Source: Azospirillum lipoferum 4B (GTDB taxonomy: Bacteria; Pseudomonadota; Alphaproteobacteria; Azospirillales; Azospirillaceae). From it: a stretch of 64,000 bases of DNA. Position numbers and translations under genes: made by a program. Every line of letters starts with the position of its first letter. Position 1 is the stretch's first letter. The DNA lies in the NCBI RefSeq assembly GCF_000283655.1, contig NC_016622.1:942501-1006500 (forward strand), read 5' to 3'. Positions 6,319 through 24,943 of the stretch are shown here, piece by piece. Below the pieces are notes generated by a model that was given only the letters and a program-made list of their open reading frames with translations, had not been told where the DNA came from and ran no database searches.

Positions 6319-6330
6319 GTTCGGCTCCAC

Positions 6331-6417: not shown

Positions 6418-6463
6418 AGCCTCTCCAGATCATTATCTTCCCAACACATAGGACCAAGCCCGC

Positions 6464-8584: not shown

Positions 8585-8630
8585 CGAACGCCGTCCACAG
8601 TGGGGCGGTCATCACAGCGGGGTTGGGACG

Positions 8631-9218: not shown

Positions 9219-9222
9219 TCCG

Positions 9223-10479
9223 ATGAAGCTGCGCCTGACCCTGATCCAATGCCCGCCCGCGCAGGGTGGCGACATCGCCCGCGATCTCGGCACCGGCCGG
9301 CTGGTGATCGGCCGCGGTCCCGATTGCGACTGGGTGCTGAACGATCCGGAGCGGATGCTGTCCAAGATCCACTGCATGGTGGAGTTCAAGGGTGGCGTCT
9401 ACATCGTCATCGACAGTTCCACCAACGGCGTCTTCCTGAACGACGCGCCGACCCCCATCGGCCGCGGCAACTCCGCCGTGGTGGGCGAGGGCGACCGGCT
9501 GCGGATGGGCGGCTTCGTCATGCGCGCCGGCTTCGCCGCGGAGGAGGCGCCGCCCGCCAACGACCCCTTCCTGGCGGTGCTGCGCGGCTCCGACGAACCG
9601 GCGCAGTCACCGGCGGCCTCGCCCGAGGACGATCCCTTCGCCCTGCCGGCCTTCGGCCGCGGACCGATGTCGGTGATGCCGATTCCGGAGGATGACGACC
9701 TGTTCGGCGACCTGCCGCAGCCGGACACGCGCTGGGGCGGCAATTCGGCTGGCGGCTGGCAGCCGACCGCGGCCGGAAACGCCTCCGGCGGCGATCCCGA
9801 CTGGCCGGGCTCCACCCAGACCGACTTCTCGCCGGACAGCCTCGGCACCATCCGGGTGTCGACCGGGCAGGCGGGATTCGGCGCCGCCAAGTTCGATGCC
9901 GGCTTCGATGCCGGCTTCCACAAGGGCAATGGCGGTTCGTCGATCCCCGACGACTGGCTGGACGATCCCGTCGACCTTCCGCCGGCCACCCAGCCGTCGA
10001 ACCCGCCTGCAAACCCGCCCGCCATTCCGCCTGACGATTGGGCCGACGAGCCGCTGGTCCCGCCGGCCTTCGGCGCGCGTCCGTCGCCCTTCGCTGCGCC
10101 ATCCGTCAACCCGGTTCCCGCCGATCCGGCCGCCGACGCGCTCAGCCGCGCGCTGGTCGATGTCGTGCTGTCGCTGGTGCGGCGGCAGGCGGCGCTGGAG
10201 GCCATGCTCGGCCTCGACCCGGACGACACGATGGCGCAGGGAGACTCGATCCTGCGCCGCGCCGTGGATGCCGACGACGCGCTCGCCCGCCTGCGTGCCC
10301 TGCCGCTCGCCGAGGCGGAGGCGCTGTTGCAGGCGGCGGTGTCCGACGGTGCGGCCCACCAGTCGGCCCTGCTGGCGGCGGTGCGCGAACTGACGGGGGA
10401 AACCGCCGACGGCGGCACCCGGCTGGCCGCCCTGTACCGCCGGCTCCTGCCGATCCACCGCCACGCGCTGGGCGGCTGA
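9223..10479 (+). CDS. FHA-domain T6SS protein (TagH/Fha-like)
   Basis: A 418-residue protein. Residues about 1-105 are an FHA phosphothreonine-binding domain with the key blocks IGRGPDCDWVLND, LSKIHC and STNGVFLND. A long Pro/Ala/Asp-rich disordered linker follows (about 110-300), and then a helical C-terminal region (about 300-418) of the kind found in T6SS Fha proteins. In other systems Fha is phosphorylated by PpkA and dephosphorylated by PppA to switch firing. No Ser/Thr kinase gene is visible here, but a PP2C-type phosphatase is encoded 9 kb downstream. The gene lies between the DUF6931 gene and tssK. Confidence 0.85.
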   Translation: MKLRLTLIQCPPAQGGDIARDLGTGRLVIGRGPDCDWVLNDPERMLSKIHCMVEFKGGVYIVIDSSTNGVFLNDAPTPIGRGNSAVVGEGDRLRMGGFVMRAGFAAEEAPPANDPFLAVLRGSDEPAQSPAASPEDDPFALPAFGRGPMSVMPIPEDDDLFGDLPQPDTRWGGNSAGGWQPTAAGNASGGDPDWPGSTQTDFSPDSLGTIRVSTGQAGFGAAKFDAGFDAGFHKGNGGSSIPDDWLDDPVDLPPATQPSNPPANPPAIPPDDWADEPLVPPAFGARPSPFAAPSVNPVPADPAADALSRALVDVVLSLVRRQAALEAMLGLDPDDTMAQGDSILRRAVDADDALARLRALPLAEAEALLQAAVSDGAAHQSALLAAVRELTGETADGGTRLAALYRRLLPIHRHALGG

Positions 10480-10534
10480 CCGGCGGGACGGAACCCATGG
10501 CAACGACCATCAGCCTGCGAGAGGGAAAGCGCCC

Positions 10535-11869
10535 ATGAGTTGGGACGACAAGGTCATCTGGTCCGAAGGCATGTTCCTGCGGGCGCAGCATTTCCAGCAG
10601 CAGGACCGCTATGTCGAGCGGCTGGTGCGCGGCCGTGTCGGCGGCATCCGCCCCTTCGCCTGGGGCATCAGCGAACTGACGATCAACCGCGAGCTTCTGG
10701 CCGTCGGCAAGTTCGCCGTCCTGCGCTGCAAGGGCATCCTGGAGGACGGGACGCCGATCAACATCCCCGACGACGACGATCCGCCGCCGCCGCTCGACCT
10801 GCCGGAAACGCTGGCCAACAGCATCGTCTATCTGGCCCTGCCCATCCGCCAGCGCGGCGGCGTGGAATTCGAGGTGGGCGAGAGCGCCGACGCGGCCACC
10901 CGCTATGTCGGTGAGGAGACGGAGACGGTCGACGCCATCGCCGGGTCGGCCAGCGTGTCGCGCATCCGCACCGGACGGCTGCGCCTGCGCTACCGGCTGG
11001 AGCGGCAGGAGCGCGCCGGCTACCACTGCCTGGGCCTCGCCCGCATCCAGGAGGTGCGGTCGGACCGCCAGGCCACGCTGGACGAGCGCTATATCCCGCC
11101 GGCCCTGAACGTCCAGGCGCTGGCCCCGCTGGCCGGCTTCGTCACCGAGATCCAGGGGTTGCTGAACAGCCGGTCGGAAGCGCTGGCCGCGCGTGTCGGC
11201 GGGTCCAACGGGCGCGGCGCCGGCGAGATGGCCGACTTCCTGATGCTGCAGGTCGCCAACCGCTCGGAACCGCTGTTCGCCAACATCGCCCGCATGCCCG
11301 ACATCCATCCGGAACGGCTGCACGGCATGATGCTGGGGCTGGCCGGCGAACTGGCGACCTTCACCGCCGTCAACAAGCGGCCGCCCAGCTTCCCGCCCTA
11401 CCGCCACGAGGATCTGCAGGGCACGCTCGAACCGGTGATGGCGGAGATCCGCCGCTCGCTGAGCGCGGTGCTGGAACAGACCGCCATTCCCATCGACCTG
11501 CAGGAGCGCAAATACGGCATCCGCGTCGGCACCATCGCCGACCGTTCGCTGATCACTACGGCGACCTTCGTGCTGGCGGTGCGGGCGGACATGCCGGGCG
11601 AGGCGTTGCGCCGCAACTTCCCCGCGCTGGTCAAGATCGGCCCGGTGGAGCAAATTCGCGAACTGGTCAATGTACAGTTGCCCGGAATCCGAGTAAGGCC
11701 GCTGCCTGTCGCTCTGCGCCAGCTGCCCTACCATGCAGGTGCCGTGTATTTCGAGCTCGAACGGGGTAGCCCGATTTGGAAACAGCTTGCAACTTCGGGC
11801 GGAATCGCGGTTCATCTAGCGGGTGATTTCCCCCAGGTGGCGATGGAGCTTTGGGCGATCCGTGGCTGA
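10535..11869 (+). CDS. tssK: T6SS baseplate protein TssK
   Basis: A 444-residue TssK with the family start MSWDDKVIWSEGMFLRAQHF. It also has the internal 'VQALAPLAGFVTEIQGLLNSR' and C-terminal 'VYFELERGSPIWKQL' / 'HLAGDFPQVAMELWAIR' blocks. TssK trimers link the baseplate to the membrane complex on the cytoplasmic face. Length is normal. The ATG overlaps the stop of a 13-codon reading frame (MATTISLREGKRP, from 10497) whose 3' end contains AGAGGG, the ribosome site for tssK. Genes for its usual partners TssL and TssM do not follow. The next gene begins the sensory operon 30 bp later. Confidence 0.95.
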   Translation: MSWDDKVIWSEGMFLRAQHFQQQDRYVERLVRGRVGGIRPFAWGISELTINRELLAVGKFAVLRCKGILEDGTPINIPDDDDPPPPLDLPETLANSIVYLALPIRQRGGVEFEVGESADAATRYVGEETETVDAIAGSASVSRIRTGRLRLRYRLERQERAGYHCLGLARIQEVRSDRQATLDERYIPPALNVQALAPLAGFVTEIQGLLNSRSEALAARVGGSNGRGAGEMADFLMLQVANRSEPLFANIARMPDIHPERLHGMMLGLAGELATFTAVNKRPPSFPPYRHEDLQGTLEPVMAEIRRSLSAVLEQTAIPIDLQERKYGIRVGTIADRSLITTATFVLAVRADMPGEALRRNFPALVKIGPVEQIRELVNVQLPGIRVRPLPVALRQLPYHAGAVYFELERGSPIWKQLATSGGIAVHLAGDFPQVAMELWAIRG

Positions 11870-11899
11870 AGCATCACCTTTTCCTGTTGTAGGGACACC

Positions 11900-12658
11900 A
11901 TGAGGCTGGGCGGGGTGCTGGCCCTGCGCACCGGTGCCGTCATAGCGGCGACGGTCGCGACCGCCGTGCTGTTGTCGGTTGCGTTGTCGGGACTGAAATT
12001 CGAGCAAAAGTTGCGCGAGGTCGCCGGATCCCGCCTGACGGTGGTGGCGGACGAGATGCGGCGCCGGGTCGAATACGGCCTGACGCTGGGCCTCGACCTG
12101 TCCGAGCTGGTCGATCTGCAGGCCCAGGCCGAGCGTGCCGCGTCCGGCGAGGAAATCCTCGGCGTCGAGGTGGTCGATGACCGCGGCATCGTTCTGTTCG
12201 CCGCCGACCGCAATGCCGTAGGGCAGCCTACGCCGGTCCGCTGGAAAGAGGACGCTTCAACCGGAACTCTGCGCCGGCAGATCGAGGGCGATGTCCTCAT
12301 CCTCGGCTCGGACGTGCGCAACAGCTTCGGGCAGACGGTGGGGCAGGTGATCCTGCGCTCCTCCCTGACCGGGCTGAAGTCGCGGGTTGCGGCGGTCGAG
12401 GAGGGGTTGCGCGGCAGCATCCTGGCGCTGGTGGGGGTCGCCGCGCTGGTGACGCTGGCCGCCGTCTTCGTCGTGGTGCGGCAGCGCGGCGGACGCGGTG
12501 GATTGGCCGACGGCACTGCTCCGCTGGGCGTGGTGCGCGACCGCCTGAACCACGGCATCGCCGAGGCCGATCACGCCATGGAAGACCTGGAACGCGAATT
12601 GGACGCCATGGCGCCGAATGCCCCCGGACCACACCCAGCGAAGGGCGCGGTGACATGA
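11900..12658 (+). CDS. Membrane sensor-like protein without output domain (first gene of sensory operon)
   Basis: A 252-residue protein with a transmembrane helix at about 12-30, an extracytoplasmic domain of about 140 residues, a second helix at about 172-193, and a short acidic cytoplasmic tail of about 55 residues. The periplasmic part has an amphipathic 'RRRVEYGLTLGLDLSELVDL' helix, then a strand-turn-strand 'VEVVDDRGIVLFAADRNAVG'. That layout matches the sensors at 12655, 16772 and 17569 and looks like a single Cache fold. There is no HAMP, kinase, methyl-accepting or cyclase module. It may be a co-receptor or an inhibitor of the other sensors (inference). Its stop overlaps the next start (ATGA). 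Confidence 0.7.
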   Translation: MRLGGVLALRTGAVIAATVATAVLLSVALSGLKFEQKLREVAGSRLTVVADEMRRRVEYGLTLGLDLSELVDLQAQAERAASGEEILGVEVVDDRGIVLFAADRNAVGQPTPVRWKEDASTGTLRRQIEGDVLILGSDVRNSFGQTVGQVILRSSLTGLKSRVAAVEEGLRGSILALVGVAALVTLAAVFVVVRQRGGRGGLADGTAPLGVVRDRLNHGIAEADHAMEDLERELDAMAPNAPGPHPAKGAVT

Positions 12659-14823
12659 GCGACCCGGCCCGCAACGCCCCTGCCAAATCCGCCGCCAAAT
12701 CCGCCGCCAGGCCGACCAAGCGGCGCGATCCGATCAGCGCACTGGTGCTGCGGCTGACCATCGTCACGGTGGCGGTCCTGCTCCTGGCGGCCGGCGCGGC
12801 CTCCTGGCTGTCGCTGCGCAGCTTCGACCCGCTGTTCCAGCCGGAACTGGCGCGCAAGGCGCAGACGGTCGGCGACCTGATGGGGGCGCAGATCGACCGC
12901 GGGCTTGGCGTGCGCATTCCGCTGGAGCGCATGGCCGGCCTCGATGCCCTGCTGGCGGCGGAGGTCGAGCGCCACGACGACATCGCCTACATCGCGGTGA
13001 CCGACCCGGCCGGACGCATCGTCGCCGCGGCGGGCGGACCGCTGGCCGGCATCACGGCGCTGTCGGCTGACCGGCTGACCGGCCCGGCCGACGGCCGGCT
13101 TGCCCGCGGCTTCGTCGATGTCCTGCGCCCGCTGGGCGACAGCGCCAGTCCGGCCGGCGGGCTGCATGTCGGCGTCGACAGCGCCTTCCTGGCCAAGGCC
13201 TCGACCGATCTGGCACTGGACGTGCTGTCGGTGGTCATCGTCTCCGTCCTGTTGATCTTCGAAGTGCTGCAGCTGGTGGTGAATCTCGCCATGCGGCGGG
13301 TGCTGACCCTTCGGCTGCTGGCCGACCGGGCGGAGGAGGGCGATTTCCGCGCCACCCTGCCGGAGATACCGGGGCCGCTCGCGGCGACGGAGGACCGGGC
13401 GCTGGAAGGCGGCGTGCGCGCCGCTCTGGACAGCGTGAACGCCCGCTATGCCGGGCTTGCCGCGCGGGTGGCGGAGCTTCGCGGCCGGCTGGGCGGCGAC
13501 GACCCGCGGGTCGGCCGGGCCGAGGCCGGGCTGTCGGCGCTCGCCCGCCGCTTCCGCTTCCGCGATCCGGACTCCGCGCGCCCGCCGCCGACGCCGCTGA
13601 ACCTCGTCTTCCTGCGACTGCCGGTCTTCCTGTTCTGCCTGTCGGAGGAGCTGTCGCGCCCCTTCCTGCCGGCCTATGCCAAGTCCTTCGCCGGCGAGGT
13701 GCCGTGGCTGACGCCGGACATGGTGGTCAGCCTGCCGATCACGCTGTTCATGCTGATCTGGGCGCTGTCGCAGCCGGGCGGCGCCCGCTTCTCCGAACGC
13801 TGGGGCCGGTCGCGCGCCTTCACCATCGGCGCGCTGCTGGGCTCCGTCAGCCTGGCGCTGACCGCCTTTGCCGGGTCGCTGGCAGAGCTGATGCTGTGGC
13901 GCTGCCTGACCGCGCTCGGCTATGGGCTTGTGCTGATCACCGCGCAGGGAATCGTCGTCGACCACACCACCCCGCGCAACCGCGCCGCCGGCATGGCCAT
14001 GTTCATCGGCGCCCTGCTGGCCGCCGGCGTTTGCGGTCCGGTCAGCGGCGGCATCATCGCCGACCAGATCGGCTTCCGCGCCACCTTCCTGCTGGGTGCG
14101 CTTCTGGCGCTCGGGTCCGGCCTGTCGGTCAGCCTGCTTCTGCTGCGCGGACGCGGTGCGGCGCAATCTCCTGCCGCTGCCGGTGCGGCGTCCCGGCCGG
14201 CGATGGGCAGCGCCTTGCCGCTGTTCCGCGACTTCCGCTTCTCCGCCCTGATGGTGCTGAGCGCCATCCCGACGAAGATCGCATCCACCGCCTTCCTCTT
14301 CTGCCTCGTGCCGCTGCTGCTGACCGCCGACGGCGCGTCGAAGGCGGAGATCGGGCGGGTGCAGATGATGTATTTCGTCGCCTTCATCCTGGTGTCGCCG
14401 CTGGCCGCCAGCCTGTCCGACCGATGGCAGGCGCGGCGCGGTTTCATCGCCCTCGGCGGCATCGGCACGCTGGCGAGCTGCCTGCCGATCGTCGCCACCC
14501 AGGCGATGTGGGGGCCGCCGCTGGCCATCGCCCTGTTCGGCCTGTCGCAGGCGCTGGTCGGTGCGCCGCAGCTGACGCTGGTTTCGCAGATCGCCCGCGA
14601 CGGCGGCCTGCCGGAAACCGCGGCCATCGGCTGGTACCGGCTGATCGAACGGCTGGGCGGCGCGCTCGGCCCCGTCACCGCAATGGCGGTGGCGGTCGCC
14701 ACCTCCTACCGCGAGGCGATGCTGAGCATCGGCCTGCTGTGCGGGGTGAGCGCGCTTCTGTTCTGGATCCTTTTCCGCACCGGGCGTCCGGCAACTCCCG
14801 CCGCCCGGCCACAGGAGGCATGA
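12655..14823 (+). CDS. Sensor-MFS transporter fusion
   Basis: A 722-residue fusion. A helix at about 27-50, a Cache-like periplasmic domain with 'IDRGLGVRIPLERMAGLDAL' and 'IAYIAVTDPAGRIV', and a helix at about 189-211 make a sensor unit. A linker of about 100 residues leads to a complete MFS-type 12-helix domain from about 315 to 715. Its N-half carries 'GARFSERWGRSRAFTIGALLG', the MFS loop 2-3 motif, and its C-half the matching 'ASLSDRWQARRGFIALGG'. An MFS permease with its own N-terminal extracytoplasmic sensor is unusual. It could be a gated transporter, or a receptor that uses the MFS core as transducer. The start and stop overlap the neighbours by 4 bp. Confidence 0.8.
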   Translation: MSDPARNAPAKSAAKSAARPTKRRDPISALVLRLTIVTVAVLLLAAGAASWLSLRSFDPLFQPELARKAQTVGDLMGAQIDRGLGVRIPLERMAGLDALLAAEVERHDDIAYIAVTDPAGRIVAAAGGPLAGITALSADRLTGPADGRLARGFVDVLRPLGDSASPAGGLHVGVDSAFLAKASTDLALDVLSVVIVSVLLIFEVLQLVVNLAMRRVLTLRLLADRAEEGDFRATLPEIPGPLAATEDRALEGGVRAALDSVNARYAGLAARVAELRGRLGGDDPRVGRAEAGLSALARRFRFRDPDSARPPPTPLNLVFLRLPVFLFCLSEELSRPFLPAYAKSFAGEVPWLTPDMVVSLPITLFMLIWALSQPGGARFSERWGRSRAFTIGALLGSVSLALTAFAGSLAELMLWRCLTALGYGLVLITAQGIVVDHTTPRNRAAGMAMFIGALLAAGVCGPVSGGIIADQIGFRATFLLGALLALGSGLSVSLLLLRGRGAAQSPAAAGAASRPAMGSALPLFRDFRFSALMVLSAIPTKIASTAFLFCLVPLLLTADGASKAEIGRVQMMYFVAFILVSPLAASLSDRWQARRGFIALGGIGTLASCLPIVATQAMWGPPLAIALFGLSQALVGAPQLTLVSQIARDGGLPETAAIGWYRLIERLGGALGPVTAMAVAVATSYREAMLSIGLLCGVSALLFWILFRTGRPATPAARPQEA

Positions 14824-15902
14824 CCGCGATGAGAGTCGACGAAAGCGATCTCCTCCGCATCCGCCGCCGCTCGCTGCTGCGCCTCGCCGCTGCCGGCGGG
14901 CTGGCCCTGCCCGGACTGCCGCTGGCCGGCAACTCGCTGATCGGGACGGCGCTGGCCGCGACGGTGCCCGACAAGACCTTCCGCATCACCATGGTGCTGG
15001 GCCGCGGCGAAAGCGACAACGAGTTCGGCTTCAAGGATTATCTGGCCCGGCGCGGCCTGAAGGTGGACTACACCATCCGCAACACCGGCGGCGACACCGC
15101 CAAGCTCCCGGGTATCATCCAGGAGATCAAGGACACTCGGCCCGACCTCGTCTACAGCTGGGGGACGCCACAGACCAGGGCTCTGGTCGGCCCCTATGAC
15201 GCGGCGGACCCGCAAAAGCACATCACCGACATTCCGGTGGTCTTCACCTTCGTCGCCGCTCCGGTTGACGCGAAGATCGTGCCCGACCTCGCAGGGTCGG
15301 GACGCAACGTCACCGGCACCATCCACATCGCGCCCATCGCGGTGCAGCTGAACACCATCCAGGCCTACCGCCCGATCAAGCGGCTAGGCGTGGTCTTCAA
15401 CCCGCAGGAACGCAACTCCGTTCTCACGGTGGAAGGGCTGCGGGCCGAGACGGCGCTGCGCGGGCTGGAGCTGATCGAGGAGCCGGTCCCCCTGAACGAC
15501 CGCGGCGAGCCGATCTCCGCCGCGGTGCCCGACGCGCTGGCCCGGGTGGCGAAGCGCGGGGGCGAGGTCCTCTATATCGGTCCCGACACCTTCATCGCCT
15601 TCCACAACCGCACCGTGGTGGCGGCGGAGGCGTTGCGCCTGGGCCTGCCGACCTTCTCGGTGACAGAGCTGATCGTGCGCACCGACAAGGCGATGCTGGC
15701 GCTGGCGAGCAGCGCCTACGGCATCGGCCGCTTCACCGCCTTCAAGGCGGCGCAGATCCTGGTGGACGGCGTCAGTCCGGCCGAAATTCCCGTGGAAACG
15801 CTGAAGCGCTTTTCCGTCATCATCAACATGGCCACCGTTCGGGCGCTGGAGTACTACCCGCCCATCGGCCTCCTGAATTTCGCGGAAATCATCGAATCAT
15901 GA
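14820..15902 (+). CDS. Orphan ABC-type substrate-binding protein (TrpX-like family), Tat signal
   Basis: A 360-residue periplasmic binding protein of the 'ABC transporter substrate binding' (PF04392-like) family. The N-terminus has RRRSLLRLAAAGGLALPG, a twin-arginine-type signal followed by a hydrophobic stretch and an 'ALA' cleavage region. The mature part has the family blocks 'RPDLVYSWGTPQTRALVGPY', 'IPVVFTFVAAPVDAKIV' and 'KRLGVVFNPQERNS'. No permease or ATPase gene accompanies it. It lies inside the sensory operon, overlapping both neighbours by ATGA, so it may present a ligand to one of the membrane sensors rather than feed a transporter (inference). ATG 14829 is an alternative start. 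Confidence 0.8.
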   Translation: MTAMRVDESDLLRIRRRSLLRLAAAGGLALPGLPLAGNSLIGTALAATVPDKTFRITMVLGRGESDNEFGFKDYLARRGLKVDYTIRNTGGDTAKLPGIIQEIKDTRPDLVYSWGTPQTRALVGPYDAADPQKHITDIPVVFTFVAAPVDAKIVPDLAGSGRNVTGTIHIAPIAVQLNTIQAYRPIKRLGVVFNPQERNSVLTVEGLRAETALRGLELIEEPVPLNDRGEPISAAVPDALARVAKRGGEVLYIGPDTFIAFHNRTVVAAEALRLGLPTFSVTELIVRTDKAMLALASSAYGIGRFTAFKAAQILVDGVSPAEIPVETLKRFSVIINMATVRALEYYPPIGLLNFAEIIES

Positions 15903-16723
15903 GCGCCCGCATCCCCATGACCCTGCCGTTCGGCGGAGCCCCCCTGTGTGGCGAGGCCGCCCGCGCGGTGGCCGCCGTCCGCCTGCAGGCGCTGGCCGCC
16001 GACCTGCCGGACGGGCTGACCGCCCGCATGATGGACCTGGACGATTCCAACCTGCTGGCCGACTTCCGCGTCCGCGTGGTGGCGACGCTGGAGGATCCCG
16101 ACCATTACCGCATGGCGGGCGAGGTCGGGAACTTCGTCGCCGACCATCTGGGCGAGAAGGGGCTGACCGCCGGCATCTTCCGTCACGAGGGGCGCAGCGG
16201 CGATGGTTCCGGCGGCCGTCTGGTCGCCTACGGCGCGCTGGGCCTGCCGTCGGGCAAGGACCCCAACCGTGGCCGCGACCTCGATCTTCCGGAAGCGGAA
16301 CTGCCCTGGGTCGCGCACATGTCGTCGGCGATGGTCGATCCGTCGGAGCGCGGGCGCGGCCTGCATCACCGGCTGATCGACTGGCGGATCGAGGTGGCGG
16401 AGGCGCTGGGCCGCCGGCACCTGATCACCACGGTCAGCACCCGCAACCACCGCAGCTGGGGCCATCTGGCCGGCCACGGCATCTATCCCAAGCGGCTGGT
16501 CCGCGTCGGCGGCGATCTGGTGCGCCTGCTGGTCCACCGCGATTTCACCGCCGATCCGATCTTCGACACCGCCAGCGCCGAACTGGTGGCGGTGGAGGAG
16601 CTGGCTGGACGCTGGGACGTGTTCGAGCGCGGCCATGTCTGGGGCCGCGTCGCCGTGGGCGACGGTGCCGCGCTGCGCTGGTACGCGCTGTGCGGCCGGG
16701 AAAAGGGCTCCGCTGGAGCATGA
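15899..16723 (+). CDS. GNAT-family N-acetyltransferase
   Basis: A 274-residue protein with a GNAT core. The acetyl-CoA binding motif A is readable as 'SSAMVDPSERGRGLHHRLIDWRI', with the RGRGLHHRL turn, preceded by a strand/turn 'ELPWVAHM'. A later block 'TTVSTRNHRSWGHLAGHGIYPKR' matches motif B of GNAT enzymes. The substrate is unknown. It has no signal peptide and should be cytoplasmic. It overlaps the upstream binding-protein gene by 4 bp and precedes the next sensor by 48 bp, so it belongs to the same operon. It might modify one of the operon's regulators or a small molecule handled by it. That is inference. Confidence 0.75.
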   Translation: MSARIPMTLPFGGAPLCGEAARAVAAVRLQALAADLPDGLTARMMDLDDSNLLADFRVRVVATLEDPDHYRMAGEVGNFVADHLGEKGLTAGIFRHEGRSGDGSGGRLVAYGALGLPSGKDPNRGRDLDLPEAELPWVAHMSSAMVDPSERGRGLHHRLIDWRIEVAEALGRRHLITTVSTRNHRSWGHLAGHGIYPKRLVRVGGDLVRLLVHRDFTADPIFDTASAELVAVEELAGRWDVFERGHVWGRVAVGDGAALRWYALCGREKGSAGA

Positions 16724-16771
16724 TGGCACGGGGCCGGGCGGGCGCTGAGGCGCTCGGCCGGCTGGAGGGGG

Positions 16772-17572
16772 ATGGCCGGGATGGGATCGGGCAGTTTCGG
16801 GGCGCGGCTGGCGGCGTTCATGGCGGTGGCGGTCTTCGTCTCCGCCCTGTCCGCCGTCGTGATGTGGACGCGCGAACAGGCACGCCGCCTGGACGAGGCC
16901 GTGACCTCCCAGGTCGGTTTCGTGCTGAGCGAGGCCAAGGCATCGCTCGAGACCCAGCTGAATCTCGGCCTTGCGCTGGGCGACCTGCCGCAGGTCGACG
17001 GGCTGCTGGCCCGCGCCCGCGTCGCCCTTCCCGGCATCCAGTCGGTCACCGTTCTGGACGAGACCGGCACCGTCCTGTTTTCGACCAACGCGGTGGAGGT
17101 GGGCGAGCATCTGCCCGTTCGGACCTCGGTCGAGCCTAATGGCGGCGTCAGCGGCTTCTGGTCGGAGGAGCGCGGGGACGAACGGGTCTATGGCGTCGGA
17201 CTCGCCACCAGTTTCGACACGGTGGCAGGCAGCCTGCTGGTTCGCATGCCGGCCGGCGCGATGGACGAGCCGATGCGCCATTATGCCCTGACCCTTTCCA
17301 TCGGCGCGGTGCTGATCGTGCTTCCGCTGGCCCTGCTGGGCTGGCTGGCTGGCCTGCGGCTTGCTGCCGGACCGCGCCGCTCGCTGTCCGACCTTGCGGC
17401 TACCCTCGAAGGGCTGGGGGAGGTCGGGCGCATCCGCGCCGAACTGCCGGCGCAGTTGGCGCACCAGACGTTAGGGCTGCCGGCCGCCGCCTTCACCGAT
17501 GCGGTGCGGCGGCGCCTGACCATCCTGGACGAGGCGGAGCGCGAAGTCGCACGCCTGGATGAACTCGCATGA
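16772..17572 (+). CDS. Second membrane sensor-like protein without output domain
   Basis: A 266-residue protein laid out like the product at 11900. It has a helix at about 12-30, a periplasmic Cache-like domain with 'LETQLNLGLALGDLPQVDGL' and 'IQSVTVLDETGTVLFSTNAVEVG', a helix at about 171-196, and a short cytoplasmic helical tail ending 'DEAEREVARLDELA'. The similarity of the amphipathic helix and of the 'VxVxDxxGxVLF' hairpin to the other sensors in the operon points to duplication and divergence. No output domain is present. The start of the next gene overlaps its stop (ATGA). Confidence 0.7.
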   Translation: MAGMGSGSFGARLAAFMAVAVFVSALSAVVMWTREQARRLDEAVTSQVGFVLSEAKASLETQLNLGLALGDLPQVDGLLARARVALPGIQSVTVLDETGTVLFSTNAVEVGEHLPVRTSVEPNGGVSGFWSEERGDERVYGVGLATSFDTVAGSLLVRMPAGAMDEPMRHYALTLSIGAVLIVLPLALLGWLAGLRLAAGPRRSLSDLAATLEGLGEVGRIRAELPAQLAHQTLGLPAAAFTDAVRRRLTILDEAEREVARLDELA

Positions 17573-19017
17573 CGACCCGCAACACCGTTCGCGGCGCATT
17601 CCGCGGCCATCGCCTGTTCATGGCCGGCATTCCCGCCGTCATCCTGCTGGTGGCCGCCCTGGTGATGGCCGGGGTCGGGTTGCTCGGCACCTGGCTGGCG
17701 CAGGACCAGCTGGGCGAGGCGCGCGCCGCCAAGGCCGCCGCGGTGGCGGAGGCGGTTCAGCATGATCTGGAACGCGCCATCGGCTACGGCATTCCCCTGC
17801 CGCGCATCGAAGGGGTGGCGGCCTTCCTTCAGGGCATCGCCAACCGCAACCCCGATCTGGGGTTCCTGGCGCTGACCGGCGGCGACGGTGTGCTGCTGCA
17901 GGGGGCGGTCAATGCCGGCGGCGGCATCGACGCTGCCGGGTTGCAGGCGCTGACCGCCGGCCTGCGCGGCCTGCCGACGCCGGAAACCCGTGCCGCGACC
18001 CTCCAGCCGATCGAGCGCGACGGCCTGCTGATCCTGCGGGTGCCGGTGCGGGTCGGCCGCCTGTCGTCGGAAGGCGGCGGCGGCGGAGTGGGCCAGCCGC
18101 CGGCCGGCCATGTGCTGGTGGGCGTCCAGCCGATGCAGGTGCGTGGTCAGATCGCCGGGGAGCTGGCGACGGTGGCGCTGGGAGGACTGGCGGTTCTGCT
18201 GCTGCTGGCCGAGCTGGCCGGCGTTCTGGCCCGTGCCAGCTTCCGTGCGCCGTTGCGCCGCCTTGCCCTTGCGATGGCGGATGCGGCGGACGGGCATTTC
18301 GCCACCCTGCTGGGCCGCCGTCCGCGCGATCAGGTCGGTCGGCTGCTGTTCGCCTTCAACGCCGTGGTCTTCGGCCTTCACGAGCGCCGCCAGCGCTTCG
18401 CCGCCCATGCCGACGAAGTGCGCGCCGCCGTCTTCGATCCGGAGGTGGCCTCTGCGGTCGAGAACACGCGACTGTCGGCTCTGACCGCCCTCGGTCCGGG
18501 CCTGGAGGCGGCGCCGCGCCGCGAGATCGATTCCCGATCCGACGATGTCCTCGCCTTCGCCCTGCTGTCGGCCGCGGCGGCGGCGATGCTGGTTCTCGCC
18601 GGCAGCCTTTCCCTGGCCGGTCCGGCGCTGGCCCTGGTGGTGGCCGCTGCATTGGTCGGTGCCATTGCCGGCTATGTCGTCCCGCCCGGCTGGCGCCGTG
18701 TCGCGGCGGTGCTGAATGCGCTGGCGCTGTTGTCGACGGCGGCGGTGCTGCTGCTCGGCGGTGCATCGCTGCCTGCCGGATTGGCCGGCGGAGTGTGCGG
18801 CGGTTTCGCCGCCGGGCTGGCGCTGTCCTATGTGCGCCGTCAGGCGGCCGATGGCGGGCAGCTTTCGCTGTTGCGGACGCTGGCCTCCGGGATTGTCGCG
18901 GCCCTCTTGTGGGCGGCGGCGGTCGGCTGGGACGGCGGGATGCTCGCGGCATCGTCGCTGTTGCCGGCGGCCTTGGCTGCGCTGCTGGCCCGCCCCATCG
19001 TCGTTTCGCGGAGCTGA
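17569..19017 (+). CDS. Sensor with HAMP-like linker and polytopic membrane C-terminus
   Basis: A 482-residue membrane protein. A helix at about 18-42, a Cache-like periplasmic domain ('IGYGIPLPRIEGVAAFLQGI' and 'LGFLALTGGDGVLLQG') and a helix at about 199-222 are followed by a HAMP-like stretch ('APLRRLALAMADAADGHFAT', then 'RDQVGRLLFAFNAVVFGL'). From about residue 325 to the end there are about six or seven hydrophobic helices with short loops and no recognised motif. The protein thus repeats the plan of the sensor-MFS fusion but with a smaller, unknown membrane module. It overlaps the upstream gene by 4 bp and is 9 bp before the phosphatase gene. Confidence 0.7.
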   Translation: MTTRNTVRGAFRGHRLFMAGIPAVILLVAALVMAGVGLLGTWLAQDQLGEARAAKAAAVAEAVQHDLERAIGYGIPLPRIEGVAAFLQGIANRNPDLGFLALTGGDGVLLQGAVNAGGGIDAAGLQALTAGLRGLPTPETRAATLQPIERDGLLILRVPVRVGRLSSEGGGGGVGQPPAGHVLVGVQPMQVRGQIAGELATVALGGLAVLLLLAELAGVLARASFRAPLRRLALAMADAADGHFATLLGRRPRDQVGRLLFAFNAVVFGLHERRQRFAAHADEVRAAVFDPEVASAVENTRLSALTALGPGLEAAPRREIDSRSDDVLAFALLSAAAAAMLVLAGSLSLAGPALALVVAAALVGAIAGYVVPPGWRRVAAVLNALALLSTAAVLLLGGASLPAGLAGGVCGGFAAGLALSYVRRQAADGGQLSLLRTLASGIVAALLWAAAVGWDGGMLAASSLLPAALAALLARPIVVSRS

Positions 19018-19026
19018 GAGGCCCCC

Positions 19027-21180
19027 ATGCTGCTTCAGACCCGCATCATCCTGTTCGTTCTCGCCACCGTCACCGTGGTGGCCGGTCTTCTTCTCGGTTT
19101 TGCCGCGCTGCGCGAGGATGCCCTCGACCGCCGTGCGCGCGAGCTTGAGCTGGCCCGGCTGGAAACCTCGTGGCAGCTGGCCGTGTCGGGCGCGGTCGGA
19201 CGCATCGACCAGGGTCTCGGCCGGATGGCGGGCGACGCCGAGATCGCCCGCACGGTGGAGGCGGAGGACCGCGGCGCCCTCGACCGCCGTGTCGCGGCGC
19301 TCGGCATCGTCGCCGCCCCCGCCACCGGCGGGATCACCGACGTCAACCTGCTGTCGAAGTCGGGGGAGCTGCTCTACAGCACCGACCCGGCGCTGGAACC
19401 GCAACCGCTGCTGAACCGCGGCGCGCTGGACGCCATCCTGTCCGGTCAGAAGCTGGCGCGCGGCGTCCGTCTGGTCGACGGCGAGCGGCTGGTCGTGGTG
19501 GCCGGCGTGCCGATCTATGCCGGGACCGGGGCCGGCGGCGGGGCGGGCAGCGGGGCCGGCGTCACCGGTGCCGCCGTCGCCGGGCTGGATTTCGTCGCCG
19601 CGCTGGACGTGCTGCGGCGGACCACCGGCGGGCGCGTCTTCGCCGTGACCCGCAACGGCACGGTTTTCGACGGGCAAAGCGATCCGCTGTGGCCGGCGGT
19701 CAAGCCGCTGGTCCGCCCGGCGGAACGCAGCATCGCCACCATCGCCGGTGGCGGGCGCCGCTATGCGCTTGCCAGCCTGCCGGTCGCCGACCTTGCCGGC
19801 GGGCGTGTCGCCACCGTGCTGATCGCCACCGACGTCACCCAGGCGGTGGAGGAACAGGCTCTGTGGTCGGTCGCCTATGTCGCGGCGGTCGGGCTGGTGC
19901 TGCTGGGCGCGCTCGGCCTGCTCTACGGCTTCCTGCGGCGGAACTTCTCCACCCTCGACGGGGCGGTGAAGGCGTTGCAGGACCTCTCCCGCGGGCGCGC
20001 CATGGGCTATGTCGAACTGCCGGCCGGCAATGACGAGATCGGCCGGATCGCCGGTGCGGTGGAGGTCTTCCGCGGCGTGATGCGCGAGATCGAGCGCAGC
20101 GCCGGCCAGCGCGAACGGCGCCTGCGCCGCCAGCAGCGCTTCATCCGCCGCCAGATGGAGGCGCTGGCGGTGACGCTGGAGGAGGACGCCCGCCAGAACC
20201 TGCTGGAGGAGCTGCGCCAGATCGAGGCCGAGACCCACGACGCCCAGTCCGCCCAGTCCAAGGGCGTCGGCGATGAACTGGGGCTGCTGGCGCTGGGCTT
20301 CTCCAGGCTGGCGACGCGGGTCAGCACCCAGCAGGTGCAGCTGACCCAGATGGTGCGCGACCTGCGCGAGGCTCTCGCCGACAAGCGGCGGCTGATCAGC
20401 CTGCAGCAGGAGCTGGAGATCGCCCGCACCATGCAGCTGACCATCCTGCCGCAGGTCTTTCCCGACTTGGCCGAGCTGGACATCGCCGCGCGGATGATCC
20501 CGGCCAAGGAGGTCGGCGGCGACTTCTACGATTTCTTCCCGATTTCCGAGCACAAGGTGGCGCTGGTCATCGCCGACGTGTCGGGCAAGGGCATCCCGGC
20601 CGCCTTCTTCATGCTGATCACCCGCACCATGCTGCGCGCCATCGCCGAATCCGGCGTCGGCCCGGCGGAGACCATGCGCCGGGTCAACAACCTGCTTGCC
20701 GCGGAAAACGAACAGATGATGTTCGTCACCGTCTTCTACGGCGAGCTGGACCTGCGCACCGGCGTGCTCGCCTTTTCCAACGGCGGCCACAACCCGCCGC
20801 TGCGCATGACCGCGTCCGGCGCGGTGAAGGAGTTGGAGCGCACCCCCGGCATCGCGCTGGCCGCCATGCCCGACATGCCCTTCGGCGAGAAGAGCGTGAC
20901 GCTGGACACCGGCGATATGGTGTTCCTGTTCACCGATGGCGTGACCGAGGCCTTCAATGGTGAAGAGGTGATGTATGGCGACCCGCGGCTTGTTGCCGCA
21001 GTCGGCGGGCAGGCCAATGCCTCCGCCCGCGACGGGCTGGACGGAGTGCTTGCCGACGTCGCCCGTTTCACCGCCGGTGCGCCGCAGTCCGACGACATCA
21101 CCTGTCTGGTCCTGCGCTGGCGCGGGGCGGCGGAGGCGCCGACCGCCGCCGTGGCGCAGCTGGCCGATCCCGTCGCCTGA
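19027..21180 (+). CDS. Membrane sensor - HAMP - PP2C/SpoIIE-type serine phosphatase
   Basis: A 717-residue protein. Helix 1 (about 5-27) and helix 2 (about 279-302) flank a large periplasmic sensor. HAMP ('GNDEIGRIAGAVEVFRG') and a long coiled coil (about 355-480) lead to an RsbU/SpoIIE-like PP2C domain. Metal-ligand and catalytic aspartates are intact: GGDFYD (D499), ADVSGKG (D517), FTDGVTEAF (D637) and SDDITCLV (D689, D690). Such enzymes dephosphorylate STAS anti-anti-sigma proteins, and a STAS gene lies just downstream. It may also act on T6SS phosphoproteins such as the FHA protein. It is the last gene of the tightly spaced sensory operon. Confidence 0.9.
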   Translation: MLLQTRIILFVLATVTVVAGLLLGFAALREDALDRRARELELARLETSWQLAVSGAVGRIDQGLGRMAGDAEIARTVEAEDRGALDRRVAALGIVAAPATGGITDVNLLSKSGELLYSTDPALEPQPLLNRGALDAILSGQKLARGVRLVDGERLVVVAGVPIYAGTGAGGGAGSGAGVTGAAVAGLDFVAALDVLRRTTGGRVFAVTRNGTVFDGQSDPLWPAVKPLVRPAERSIATIAGGGRRYALASLPVADLAGGRVATVLIATDVTQAVEEQALWSVAYVAAVGLVLLGALGLLYGFLRRNFSTLDGAVKALQDLSRGRAMGYVELPAGNDEIGRIAGAVEVFRGVMREIERSAGQRERRLRRQQRFIRRQMEALAVTLEEDARQNLLEELRQIEAETHDAQSAQSKGVGDELGLLALGFSRLATRVSTQQVQLTQMVRDLREALADKRRLISLQQELEIARTMQLTILPQVFPDLAELDIAARMIPAKEVGGDFYDFFPISEHKVALVIADVSGKGIPAAFFMLITRTMLRAIAESGVGPAETMRRVNNLLAAENEQMMFVTVFYGELDLRTGVLAFSNGGHNPPLRMTASGAVKELERTPGIALAAMPDMPFGEKSVTLDTGDMVFLFTDGVTEAFNGEEVMYGDPRLVAAVGGQANASARDGLDGVLADVARFTAGAPQSDDITCLVLRWRGAAEAPTAAVAQLADPVA

Positions 21181-21311
21181 TGCCGATAAATCGATGATGG
21201 CAGGCGCCCGTCCTGCCCTCGAATGCATCGTCGGACTTGCGAGGGCGTGGTATAAGCACGGGATAGGAAAGATCCTGGTAACATCCAGCTAAGACAAGGC
21301 GAGGGCAGGGG

Positions 21312-21650
21312 ATGAATATTACCGAACAGTCGGTCAACGGCGTCACGGTGCTGCGCGCGGAAGGCCGTATCGACAGCGGCAACGCCGCCCAGTTCGAGGC
21401 GGCGCTGCTGTCGGCCATCGGGGCCGAGGGCACGCGGCTCGTTGTCGACATGGAGCAGCTTTCCTACATCAGTTCTGCCGGGCTTCGCTGTCTGCTGGTC
21501 GCCGCCAAGGCGGCCCGTGCGAAGCGCGGAGCCATCGCCCTGTCGGCCATGGCGTCGCACATCCGCGAGGTGTTCGATGTCAGCGGCTTCTCGTCTCTGT
21601 TCGAGATCCATGCCGATGCGGCTGCCGCCGTCGCGGCGCTGGGTGGATGA
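21312..21650 (+). CDS. STAS-domain anti-anti-sigma factor-like protein
   Basis: A 112-residue single STAS domain. The loop that carries the regulatory phosphoserine reads YISSAGLR, with S55 in the position of the SpoIIAA/RsbV phosphosite. The N-terminal strand 'VTVLRAEGRIDSGNAAQFE' is also typical. In partner-switch systems the unphosphorylated form sequesters an anti-sigma kinase. No HATPase kinase gene is visible in the window, so the partner is elsewhere or different. It lies 131 bp after the phosphatase gene. The gap contains GTGGTATAAGC, a possible -10 region, so it may have its own promoter as well as read-through. Confidence 0.9.
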   Translation: MNITEQSVNGVTVLRAEGRIDSGNAAQFEAALLSAIGAEGTRLVVDMEQLSYISSAGLRCLLVAAKAARAKRGAIALSAMASHIREVFDVSGFSSLFEIHADAAAAVAALGG

Positions 21651-21739
21651 CAGCGGGGATCGGGCGTCGGGGGTGCGTTTTCCGCCGGCTGCGGCCGGCC
21701 TTGCGATAAGGCGGTTCCCGAAAGGGGGCCGGGTGTGTG

Positions 21740-22138
21740 ATGGGAAGTGCCATTCGGCCAAACATCCTGGTTGTTGAAGACTCGCCGGCCGTGCGGCTGT
21801 CGGTGGCCGGCTATCTCGAAGGCCGCGGTTTCGACGTGACCGAGGCGGAGAATGGCCGCGCCGCCATCCGCGCGCTGGACCGCCGCAGCTTCGACCTCAT
21901 CGTCACCGACGTGCTAATGCCGGAGGTGGACGGGATCGAGCTGATCAAGGCGGCGCGCACCGCACAACCCGACGTGAAGATCCTCGCCATGTCCGGCGGC
22001 GCGCCCAACATGCCGGCGGGCTATCTCCTGAAGATGACGCGCATGTTCAATGCGGATGAGATCATCTACAAACCCTTCCTCAACGAGGAGTTGGGGGCTG
22101 CGGTTGCCCGCCTGCTCGACCAGTCGCATGCAAATTAA
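21740..22138 (+). CDS. Stand-alone response-regulator receiver
   Basis: A 132-residue CheY-like receiver. The acidic pair is in 'LVVEDSPAVR', the phospho-acceptor Asp57 in 'VTDVLMPEVDG', the switch Ser/Thr in 'AMSGG', and the conserved Lys in 'YKPF'. There is no output domain. I chose the ATG at 21740. The adjoining GTG at 21737 would add one residue, and GGGGG lies at 21724-21728. It follows the STAS gene by 89 bp on the same strand. It may deliver a phospho-signal to the partner-switch or sensory proteins upstream, but no cognate histidine kinase is encoded here. Confidence 0.88.
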   Translation: MGSAIRPNILVVEDSPAVRLSVAGYLEGRGFDVTEAENGRAAIRALDRRSFDLIVTDVLMPEVDGIELIKAARTAQPDVKILAMSGGAPNMPAGYLLKMTRMFNADEIIYKPFLNEELGAAVARLLDQSHAN

Positions 22139-22418: not shown

Positions 22419-24041
22419 ATGGCGCAGCACGAGAATCGGTGGCGCGGTGAGGGCCGCGACTGGCGCAATGACGACCGCGAACCGAACCGGCACCGGGATT
22501 GGGGCGAGGCCCGCCATGCCGGCGTCTACGATCCGGACGATTACCGGTCCGGCGACCGCGAGAGCATGTATCACCCGCAGGCGCACCTTCACCAGGACGA
22601 GCGCGGCCGGCTTTCCCGCGATCCCAGTTACAAAGGGCGCGTCGGCAACGAATCCGGCGGCTTCGGCCGCGATTCCCATAGGGACAGCGGCGACAACCGC
22701 CGCGACAACGCCCGCGAGATGGAGCGGGTCTATGACCGCAGCTTCGGCGGCGGGCGCGACATGAGCCGCGGCGGCTATGGCGCCGGCTATGGCGGGCGCT
22801 CCGGGTCGAGCGAGTATGGCGGCTATGCCGGCGCCGGCAATGCCGGGACCGAAGGCAACTATACCAGCCGCGACGTCGGCAGCAGCGAGTATCGCGACCG
22901 CGATTACAGCGTGCGCCCCTATGGCGAGGGCGAGCAGGTCGTCCGCGGCCGCGGCTCCCTCGGCTATGGCGGCCGGGAATATGGCGAGCGCGAGTCCGGC
23001 GACCGCAACTATGCCAGCCGCGACGACCGCAACCGCGATTACGGCTCGCAGGGTGGTTATGGGGGCGGCGATGGCGGCGGTTACGAGTCCGGCCGGGACC
23101 GTGGCGAGTGGGAACGCGGCGGTTCGAGCCGGCGCGACTTCGGCAGCAGTTCATCGACCAGCTACGGCGGCAGCTATCGGCGCGACGAGGACCGCGACCG
23201 CTCCTGGGGCGAGGACCGCGGCGGGATGTACCGCGCGCAGGAGGCTCGGGGTGGCTACGGCGGTGGCCGGGGCGAGCGCCGGGGCGACGACCGTGGCCGC
23301 TCGCAGCAGCGCGGCTTCTGGGAACAGGCCGGCGACGAGATCGCCTCCTGGTTCGGCGACGACGATGCCGAACGCCGCCGGCACGACGACGAGCACCGTG
23401 CTTCCCAGCATCGTGGCCGCGGGCCGCGCGGCTACAGCCGCTCCGACGAGCGGGTGCGCGAGGATGTCAGCGACCGCCTGACCGATGACGCCTACATCGA
23501 CGCGTCCGACATCGAGGTGACGGTCAGCAGCGGCGAGGTGACGCTGACCGGCATGGTCCCCGACCGTCACACCAAGCGCCGCGCCGAGGATGTCGCCGAG
23601 GCGGTGTCCGGCGTGACCCATGTGCAGAACAACCTGCGCGTCCGCAGCCAGACCGGCAATCGGGGCGGGTCCGGCTGGGGCAGCTCCACCGGGGCCGGCG
23701 CGTCGGCGATGGCGAATGCGGGGAGCGGTTCCGGGACCGGTCCGACCTCCGGTGCCTCCACCGGCACCACGTCCGGCACCACCGCCTCCGCCATGAGCGG
23801 CACGACGGGCGGCCTGCAGGGGGGCGACACCACGGTCGGCACCAACGCCGGCATCGGCGCGGCCACCGGCAGCGGCACCGGGTCCGCATCGCCGTCCTCA
23901 ACCAGTTCCGGGGGCGGCACCGGGGCCGGCACCAGCGGCGGCCCTGCCGGCGCCTCCGCCGGGACCGGATCGATGAGCGGCTCCACCACCGGCGTCACCG
24001 GTTCGGTCGGCACCGGCCGATCCTCCACCACGCGGAGCTGA
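22419..24041 (+). CDS. BON-domain protein with long Arg/Gly/Tyr-rich disordered region
   Basis: A 540-residue protein started at the ATG at 22419 behind AAGAGGGA. Residues 1-310 are highly charged and repetitive, rich in Arg, Gly, Tyr, Asp and Ser ('GGYGAGYGGRSGSSEYGGY', 'RDYGSQGGYGGGDGGGY'). A short conserved block follows ('GFWEQAGDEIASWFGDDDAE'), then one BON domain at about 347-408 ('DASDIEVTVSSGEVTLTGMV', ending 'VTHVQNNLRV'). The last 130 residues are a Ser/Gly/Thr low-complexity tail. BON domains bind membranes or periplasmic partners, but no signal peptide is present here. Related stress-linked proteins in rhizobia share the SWFGDDDAE-BON core. The EcfG-type promoter upstream supports a stress role. 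Confidence 0.8.
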   Translation: MAQHENRWRGEGRDWRNDDREPNRHRDWGEARHAGVYDPDDYRSGDRESMYHPQAHLHQDERGRLSRDPSYKGRVGNESGGFGRDSHRDSGDNRRDNAREMERVYDRSFGGGRDMSRGGYGAGYGGRSGSSEYGGYAGAGNAGTEGNYTSRDVGSSEYRDRDYSVRPYGEGEQVVRGRGSLGYGGREYGERESGDRNYASRDDRNRDYGSQGGYGGGDGGGYESGRDRGEWERGGSSRRDFGSSSSTSYGGSYRRDEDRDRSWGEDRGGMYRAQEARGGYGGGRGERRGDDRGRSQQRGFWEQAGDEIASWFGDDDAERRRHDDEHRASQHRGRGPRGYSRSDERVREDVSDRLTDDAYIDASDIEVTVSSGEVTLTGMVPDRHTKRRAEDVAEAVSGVTHVQNNLRVRSQTGNRGGSGWGSSTGAGASAMANAGSGSGTGPTSGASTGTTSGTTASAMSGTTGGLQGGDTTVGTNAGIGAATGSGTGSASPSSTSSGGGTGAGTSGGPAGASAGTGSMSGSTTGVTGSVGTGRSSTTRS

Positions 24042-24270
24042 CCTGCCACGCCCGCAAGGGTGCGTATTCGATGACGGCAAGTCCTCTCCATGGGCGCGGG
24101 TCCCGGTTTCCCAGGCAATATCGCCCTGGGACTCCGGGGCTCGCGCCCTTCCCGTTCTAATGATCCCGCCTCGCCACCGGCACAGCGTATGATGGTCGTG
24201 GTCCGGAGCGGTCAATCCCTTGCCCGCGATGGGCTTTTCAGCATGACGCCGATTTCATTTTCACTGGAGA

Positions 24271-24306
24271 GTGGTTCCTTGACACTCTAGGGAACTCCAC
24301 TATCGT
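24271..24306 (+). promoter_or_regulatory. Promoter with overlapping inverted repeat, candidate TetR operator
   Basis: TTGACA (24279-24284), 16-bp spacer, TATCGT (24301-24306) forms a good housekeeping-type promoter ending about 28 bp before the tetR ATG. Half-sites GTGGTTCC (24271-24278) and GGAACTCCAC (24291-24300) are imperfect inverted copies flanking the -35 and spacer, as expected for an autoregulatory TetR operator. The rest of the 293-bp gap (24042-24270) shows nothing convincing. Confidence 0.45.
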
Positions 24307-24334
24307 CATTTTTCGAAACCCGTGGGTTCCATTC

Positions 24335-24943
24335 ATGCCTCTCGATGCGGAAGAGATACCTGACTGGCGGGCTCGGCGGCGCGAGGTGATCCTCAACGCC
24401 GCGGTGGAACTGTTCGCCGGCCGCGATTATGCCTCCGTCCAGGTCGAGGAGGTGGCGAAGCGGGCCGGCGTCGGCAAGGCCACGCTGTACCGCTACTTCC
24501 CCTCAAAGGAAGAGCTTTATCTGGAATCGCTGGAACGGGCGCTCGGCGGGCTGGAGCAGAAGCTGAACGCCGAAATCGCGCCGCAGCAGGTTCCGGCCTC
24601 CGTCCGGCTGTCGGCGATGGTCTCCGCCCTGGTCGGCACGCTGAGCGAGCAGTTGCAGACGCTGAAGCGGCTGGGCGGCGAGCAGTCGGACCTTGCCGAC
24701 CGCACGCGCCGGATCATCGGCCGGCGCAGCGAGCGCACCGCGACCGCCCTGCAGCAGGTCATGGCCGACGGCATGGCGTCGGGCGAGTTCCGCAAGATCG
24801 ATCTGGAAATCGTGCCGCTTCTGGTGATCGGCATGGTGCGCGGCGGCATCATGCAGATGGACGAACGCCCGCGCGAGGCGCTGGAGCGTTCCGTCATCGA
24901 CTTCCTGATGTCCGGCCTGACCAATCTGCCTCCTTTCATATAA
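24335..24943 (+). CDS. TetR/AcrR-family repressor of efflux operon
   Basis: A 202-residue regulator. The N-terminal helix-turn-helix is clear ('AAVELFAGRDYASVQVEEVA' then 'RAGVGKATLYRYFPSKEELY', about residues 20-60), followed by an all-helical ligand-binding C-domain. It is the first gene of a same-strand set with an adaptor and an RND pump (36 bp to the adaptor start). It therefore probably represses its own promoter and the pump genes until a toxic ligand binds. The inducer cannot be inferred from the sequence. Confidence 0.9.
   Translation: MPLDAEEIPDWRARRREVILNAAVELFAGRDYASVQVEEVAKRAGVGKATLYRYFPSKEELYLESLERALGGLEQKLNAEIAPQQVPASVRLSAMVSALVGTLSEQLQTLKRLGGEQSDLADRTRRIIGRRSERTATALQQVMADGMASGEFRKIDLEIVPLLVIGMVRGGIMQMDERPREALERSVIDFLMSGLTNLPPFI

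Follow-up and report, generated by a model that had tools for sequence, protein, structure and literature searches.

The window analysed here is a stretch of 64,000 nucleotides from Azospirillum lipoferum 4B (contig NC_016622.1, positions 942,501 to 1,006,500), in which a block of nine genes within positions 11900-22138 directly follows tssK, a gene of the type VI secretion system (T6SS). With moderate confidence, we propose that this block is a self-contained, transplantable sensing cassette that works through the steps set out in this paragraph. As judged from the sequence, the unit combines Cache-like sensors (S1, S2, S3 and the sensor of a sensor-MFS fusion, SMFS), a DHA1-like MFS, an orphan binding protein (SBP) and a small-molecule enzyme, and a PP2C phosphatase and a STAS protein form its output, together with an RsbW-like kinase found in relatives. 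The cassette probably serves a self-made amino-acid-like compound. The enzyme (here a GNAT) would make or finish this small compound, the MFS would move it outwards, and the binding protein would read its outside level and dock on the sensor domains. The sensor-PP2C would dephosphorylate the STAS protein, which would then release a target from the RsbW-like kinase. T6SS production or firing would be the output in T6SS strains, with other outputs where the T6SS is absent.

Composition of the gene block

Coordinates are positions in the window unless a locus is named; L-numbers denote loci and G-numbers genomes. An earlier note on this DNA had described a block that starts at 11900, 30 bp past the end of tssK, and contains four ATGA overlaps; gene calls and Pfam bear this out, the overlaps being at the S1/MFS, MFS/SBP, SBP/GNAT and S2/S3 junctions. 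All genes are on the + strand. S1 (11900-12658) is a Cache-like periplasmic sensor flanked by two predicted membrane segments (topology read by eye), with a short cytoplasmic tail and no output domain. By hhalign, S1 is homologous to S2 (99%), to the MFS-borne sensor (94%) and to the extension at the N terminus of other sensor-MFS proteins (96%). S2 (16772-17572) is an S1 paralogue, the two being 29-32% identical, and S3 (17569-19017) joins a similar sensor to a HAMP-like stretch (HAMP 9.6e-5, below cut-off) and a polytopic C-terminal part. In Pfam, the sensor parts gave weak Cache or HAMP scores, all below cut-off, and S1 gave none.

The sensor-MFS protein (12655-14823) consists of an N-terminal single-Cache-like sensor, a helical linker and an MFS domain (MFS_1 3.8e-36 in Pfam). 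This domain is nearest to DHA1 drug/H+ antiporters, with NorA, EmrB and VMAT as best matches; transport would be outwards. The structure model of the full protein was of low confidence (mean pLDDT 58; residues 71-180 at 52-83 per block). The binding protein (14820-15902, starting at the ATGA) is an orphan periplasmic ABC_sub_bind protein (PF04392, 4.6e-28 in Pfam) of an amino-acid-binding family, with PDB 3lkv, 6hni and 3lft as structural relatives. No ABC permease or ATPase was detected by Pfam among the nine proteins of the block, none is listed in L019, L020, L022 and L023, whose gene tables are possibly incomplete, and in a wider permease scan none was seen within 20 kb of a module among the matches listed. 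The small-molecule enzyme slot is occupied by a GNAT-fold acyltransferase (15899-16723; Acetyltransf_1 2.1e-4, 22 bits vs a cut-off of 20.7), which fold searches placed among many GNATs, naming no substrate.

On the output side, the PP2C (19027-21180) carries a periplasmic sensor (weak dCache) and a SpoIIE phosphatase domain (9.9e-53, positions 2-192 of 192); its translation contains GGDFYD, DVSGKG, TDGVTEA and SDDITC, which we take to be the metal-site motifs. The STAS protein (21312-21650; STAS 4.7e-18) is of the anti-sigma-antagonist type (TIGR00377 75.7 bits vs a cut-off of 53.45) and has serines in the motif ISSAGL, where the phosphorylatable residue of such antagonists presumably lies. 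The last gene, starting at 21737 or 21740 and ending at 22138, encodes an accessory single-domain receiver (Response_reg 1e-21).

Conservation among Azospirillum loci

The binding protein, used as query against genome contigs, retrieved 16 Azospirillum loci. These loci, together with L108 and the window and minus L003, L007 and L016, make up 15 window-type loci. The order S1-SMFS-SBP-GNAT-S2-S3 is kept in all 15, the window included, which argues that the block is more than a chance assembly and upholds the claim of the earlier note that the genes form one signalling unit. PP2C comes next in 14 of the 15 (only a fragment is present in L006, and L014 stops at the contig end) and STAS follows in 11. 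The receiver was not found in eight (L006, L008, L010-L014 and L108) and is therefore left out of the core. The binding protein of the window is 96% identical to its counterpart in Azospirillum sp. B21, the DNA of the two strains is 92-96% identical, and base 1 of the window falls inside the tssA of that strain; identity to the L074 locus is 93-94% at the DNA level. Plasmids searched with the DNA of the whole block gave no match.

Two Azospirillum loci, L007 and L016 (strains 412522 and TSH64, ~8200-12030), are reduced: an RsbW-like kinase, the binding protein, STAS and the receiver remain, and T6SS genes, S1, MFS, GNAT, S2, S3 and PP2C were not found in this stretch. Behind the receiver gene of the window lie a low-complexity Arg/Gly/Asp-rich open frame and then a TetR gene (22420-24943); the TetR gene is kept at the locus in L010-L012, L007 and L016, where the T6SS is absent.

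Relatives of the sensor-MFS and the enzyme slot

To find relatives of the sensor-MFS, we ran a nine-row profile at E 1e-60 on four genome samples, which overlap by a few genomes (G001, G010, G019, G262 and G113 recur). It matched 9/299 genomes in the phylum sample, 33/385 in that of the Azospirillum class, 6/369 in that of a second class and 57/82 in the family sample; in 51 of these family genomes, the match starts in the sensor part. We took on 79 sensor-MFS copies, 15 window-type and 64 other, and counted partner genes as close by when they lay no more than 13 kb from the sensor-MFS midpoint. An ABC_sub_bind protein is near 75 of the 79 copies, at 500 bp or less in 64, and three of the four copies without one are on short contigs or at a contig end. 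An S1-like gene lies just upstream in 15/15 window-type and 34/64 other copies. In a Vibrio-type clade, an S1-type sensor is fused in front of the sensor-MFS (hhalign 96% with S1, E 2e-9; 0.1% for two MFS-part controls). Since they are fused in one lineage and neighbours in another, these results suggest that the S1-type sensor and the MFS sensor work together.

The enzyme varies from cassette to cassette. By tblastn, a GNAT is near the MFS or binding protein in all window-type loci and in 15/64 other copies. Also among the other copies, 12 have a D-Ala-D-Ala-ligase-like (Ddl-like) ATP-grasp enzyme, 10 a DdaF-like ATP-grasp ligase (the A. brasilense type, together with a GNAT) and five a GCS2-type ligase. 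Single loci have a PanB-like enzyme (L047, L048), an alanine racemase with a GNAT (L053, L103), an alpha/beta hydrolase (L098, L100), a formyltransferase (L105) or further GNATs (L044, L050); each of the PanB-like, racemase, hydrolase and formyltransferase genes directly adjoins an MFS, SBP, GNAT or PP2C gene in the same orientation. Overall, 40/64 other copies have a small-molecule enzyme close by, from one or another of several unrelated families, 32 by tblastn and eight by Pfam beside the MFS or SBP (L044, L047, L048, L050, L056, L098, L100 and L105, selected open reading frames being scanned). In L045, L054, L087, L088, L089, L099, L101, L102, L104 and L106, the reading frames scanned yielded either no further enzyme or a gene of unrelated kind. 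In L056, two Ddl-like ATP-grasp genes on opposite strands (11803-12840 and 13916-14944), the second just below the Pfam cut-off, flank the binding protein, perhaps a two-ligase variant.

That unrelated enzymes occupy one slot, beside a DHA1-like MFS and an orphan TrpX/CD0873-kind binding protein, suggests a separate small molecule for each cassette, and we infer that this compound is self-made. The enzyme beside the binding protein is probably what matters most. TrpX/CD0873-type proteins bind aromatic amino acids. The binding protein of the block shares their family (PF04392; PDB 6hni, 3lft, 3lkv); unlike the TrpXYZ importer, the block has no permease or ATPase, and its binding protein is paired with a sensor-MFS. 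Dapdiamide-type clusters resemble the A. brasilense sister cassette, which has a DdaF-like ligase (207 bits against a DdaF cut-off of 840) beside GNAT and MFS; by contrast, the cassette adds sensors, a binding protein and signalling outputs, and the window has the GNAT only. Neither a LuxI-family synthase nor a LuxR-family receptor of acyl-homoserine-lactone quorum sensing was found among the nine proteins. More tentatively, we suggest an undescribed widespread family in which a core of sensor, sensor-fused exporter and orphan binding protein stays fixed and the enzyme is freely swapped; each cassette would make, export and read an amino-acid-like compound of its own and feed varied outputs (PP2C/STAS/RsbW, histidine kinases and, repeatedly, T6SS).

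The same genes could serve environmental sensing only: a host or competitor compound would be read, the enzyme and MFS would alter and expel it for protection, and the switch would trigger the T6SS or other responses, as in competition sensing. The likeness of the MFS to drug exporters fits this account, as does that of the GNAT fold to detoxifying as well as protein N-acetyltransferases, and the T6SS that the module repeatedly joins is a weapon. Against it, the three kinds of ligase, the PanB-like enzyme and the alanine racemase mostly build rather than detoxify, an argument tempered by the fact that spare Ddl or Alr copies can protect against D-cycloserine. We regard environmental sensing alone as rather unlikely.

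The RsbW-like kinase and the proposed partner switch

The earlier note had placed the PP2C and STAS proteins in a partner switch, and the kinase that would complete it was found in relatives, none being present within the window. We searched 10 Azospirillum genomes with HATPase_c_2. The best match adjoins the block in G009, G010 and G011 and lies in the reduced locus of G015. In G001, G002 and G005 it is ~32 kb upstream of the sensor-MFS, and the second-best match of G008 is 30.5 kb upstream. At L073 (G001), the kinase is a 152-aa protein encoded by the last gene of a TssM-PpkA-RsbW operon on the opposite strand, and RsbW is likewise last in this operon in L075, L076 and L077. Orthologues lie 1.2-1.4 kb from S1 in the T6SS-less loci L009-L012; these and the orthologue in the likewise T6SS-less L108 are 55-70% identical to the L073 kinase. 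In L108, RsbW directly follows STAS on the same strand, so that S1-SMFS-SBP-GNAT-S2-S3-PP2C-STAS-RsbW form one run. By synteny with the nearest strain, the kinase of the window strain should sit ~19 kb before the window start. Since RsbW is at the far end of the T6SS cluster in four T6SS strains, the T6SS sits inside the PP2C/STAS/RsbW locus. PP2C, STAS and RsbW are together in 5/15 window-type loci as fetched, RsbW lying outside the fetched locus in four T6SS strains, and in 8/64 other copies within 13 kb of the sensor-MFS. No sigma factor was found among the genes scanned near the block, and no genome was searched for one. A weak PpkA hit at L108:1292-2437 was tested and gave no family.

This arrangement shares with the RsbU/RsbV/RsbW switch a SpoIIE phosphatase, a STAS protein and a HATPase_c_2 kinase together at the locus in relatives; it differs in its input, made of several sensors, a transporter and a binding protein, and in being split around the T6SS cluster in T6SS strains. 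SiaABCD of Pseudomonas is a sensor-HAMP-PP2C switch of the same general logic, in which a membrane sensor is likewise fused to a PP2C; the block PP2C, however, reaches 59 bits against a SiaA cut-off of 700, and no SiaD-like diguanylate cyclase is among the nine proteins.

The PP2C could instead stand in the place of PppA, removing phosphate from the FHA protein or PpkA so that the T6SS is gated after translation. The neighbouring cluster contains PpkA and FHA, as in the known PpkA/PppA/Fha pathway, the RsbW-like kinase directly follows PpkA, and PF13672 (PP2C_2) matches, present in 5/5 genomes, are in no case on the contig of the T6SS cluster, which thus differs from that pathway in having no PppA-type phosphatase there. 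Nevertheless, the block phosphatase is SpoIIE-type with a STAS partner, and SpoIIE-type PP2Cs normally act on STAS proteins. Moreover, PP2C is kept in 6/6 loci without an adjoining T6SS and travels with RsbW and STAS in unrelated genomes. A role in place of PppA is therefore improbable.

Association with the T6SS

In the window, the genes upstream of the block, all on the + strand, encode TssK (10535-11869, 2.2e-157), a T6SS FHA protein (9223-10479) and ClpV, Hcp and VgrG (2876-8584); a DUF6931 relative, named after its Vibrio homologue, is also upstream with the T6SS genes. Among the window-type loci, tssK is 30-72 bp upstream of S1 in nine, the gap being 30 bp in seven, 42 bp in one and 72 bp in one. 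The remaining six (L009-L013 and L108) have no adjoining T6SS, and therefore the block is not T6SS-specific. No TssK was found in the genome of G013; in the other five genomes, the only TssK scores lower and is on another contig or (G010) 1.7 Mb away. On the tree, loci with and without a T6SS are intermingled; with the near-identical junction, this makes repeated loss of an old T6SS neighbour the simplest account, gain being the alternative. As the block persists without a T6SS, it would have a use of its own. In T6SS strains, T6SS production or firing is likely the output, since the T6SS genes separate the kinase from the rest of the unit, and the block comes immediately after tssK.

Scans for promoters and terminators returned a single weak promoter-like match (0.4 in shuffled sequence) and 8 terminator-like sites (4.7 in shuffled sequence); the tssK-S1 and PP2C-STAS gaps have none. 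Two methyltransferase genes lie inside the T6SS cluster (L073 14675-16216; window 1742-2809), and two different VipB/TssC sheath genes are adjacent in the Azospirillum T6SS cluster (L074 719-3770; also L075, L076 and L085). Seven Azospirillaceae genomes carry a second, sister cassette (sensor, sensor-MFS, SBP, GNAT and DdaF-like ATP-grasp ligase; L092-L097 and L109) and, 11-34 kb away from it, a second TssK that differs from the first.

Outside Azospirillum, the cassette is between tssH and FHA-tssJ-tssK on plasmids of Vibrio gigantis and V. tubiashii, and before VgrG-PAAR-TssA-TssB in Vibrio sp. THAF190c. It is inside a T6SS cluster in G113 and G267, beside T6SS genes in G173, G564, G327 and G781, and 29 kb from TssK in G348. 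The 42 sampled genomes include G633, which is in the family and has a plain MFS only; of the 41 others, all outside the family and with a sensor-MFS, 12 have TssK and 29 do not. The module is within 35 kb of the T6SS in 7 of the 12 TssK-bearing non-Azospirillum genomes vs 0.21 expected; the 35-kb limit for this count was chosen after the data were seen, the genomes include non-independent relatives such as G113 and G267, and some links are lost at contig breaks. Mapped on the tree, the T6SS label switches 11 times (10-11 in bootstrap trees), giving about eight separate groups. A first tree had 79 rows and a careful tree 70, long or short rows being dropped (L019, L036, L038, L052, L061, L062, L089, L091 and L104); before both, 22 loci were excluded as repeats of another row or because the MFS matched only over the MFS part, and the trees took in part of the Azospirillaceae matches. 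Type III secretion-like neighbours were observed in L019, L036 and L054: a CesT-type chaperone (Nitratidesulfovibrio plasmid), an FlhB/YscU-family protein and a secretin. The link of the cassette to secretion may be wider than the T6SS.

That T6SS and block merely share a place in the genome with no functional connection would fit the six window-type loci and 29/41 outside-family genomes without T6SS or TssK, but the same 30-bp tssK junction in 7/9 loci, the T6SS links in about eight tree groups and the excess within 35 kb make this very improbable.

The earlier proposal that the block gates the T6SS is thus retained in part. A recurring T6SS association, also outside Azospirillum, supports it; a dedicated gate does not fit the six loci of 15 without T6SS. 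The check proposed with it, conservation and co-occurrence with tssK, gave conservation of the S1-to-S3 gene order in 15/15 loci and tssK adjoining in only 9/15. The result that the earlier note had named as refuting its proposal, a block found widely without T6SS nearby, is largely what was seen: 6/15 window-type loci are without an adjoining T6SS, and TssK is present in only 12/41 outside-family genomes.

Evidence weighing against the cassette reading

Several observations count against the proposed sensing cassette. L021, L072 and L111, where the MFS matched only over the MFS part, have no binding protein, and so not every relative belongs to the cassette. The fused sensor of the Vibrio-type clade also resembles the MFS's own sensor (hhalign 83%), and its one-to-one match with S1 therefore rests on best score and position. 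In Azospirillum, L003, L007 and L016 retain SBP, STAS and receiver without the MFS (L003, a 3.4-kb contig, additionally has the GNAT), and STAS was not found in L008 and L013. L006 (Azospirillum sp. TSO35-2) is a disturbed locus with a PP2C fragment only, the match ending after 81 residues (14232 onward); STAS, receiver and TetR were not found downstream of it. The best kinase match is elsewhere in G013 and G014, and no RsbW was found near L013. Among the 64 other copies, no enzyme was recognised in 24, gaps being scanned in part, and PP2C is present in only 18, so that the partner switch is one output among several; near L018 and L050, genes for histidine kinases and HD-GYP response regulators are seen instead. 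The compound, the direction of transport and the binding partner are all putative.

Significance

The earlier note knew of no described system with this gene set, and we found no description of it in the open-access literature by title or abstract, most subscription papers being outside this scope; the available passages of PMC4618731 do not mention the block. Relative to the earlier interpretation, a kinase that would complete the switch is now seen in relatives, the cassette is general rather than T6SS-specific and the enzyme is probably central, the mechanism beyond the parts list being proposed.

For many T6SSs, little is known of what decides when they are produced or fired. A cassette that brings sensors, an MFS resembling exporters, an enzyme and a phosphate switch of its own, and that accompanies the T6SS in about eight tree groups, is a concrete candidate for a T6SS trigger. 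Even the modest reading, a partner switch split around the T6SS, alters the list of likely regulators of these clusters. If the swapped enzymes do make signals, the cassettes would represent a large untapped set of bacterial signal molecules, findable by genome context alone.

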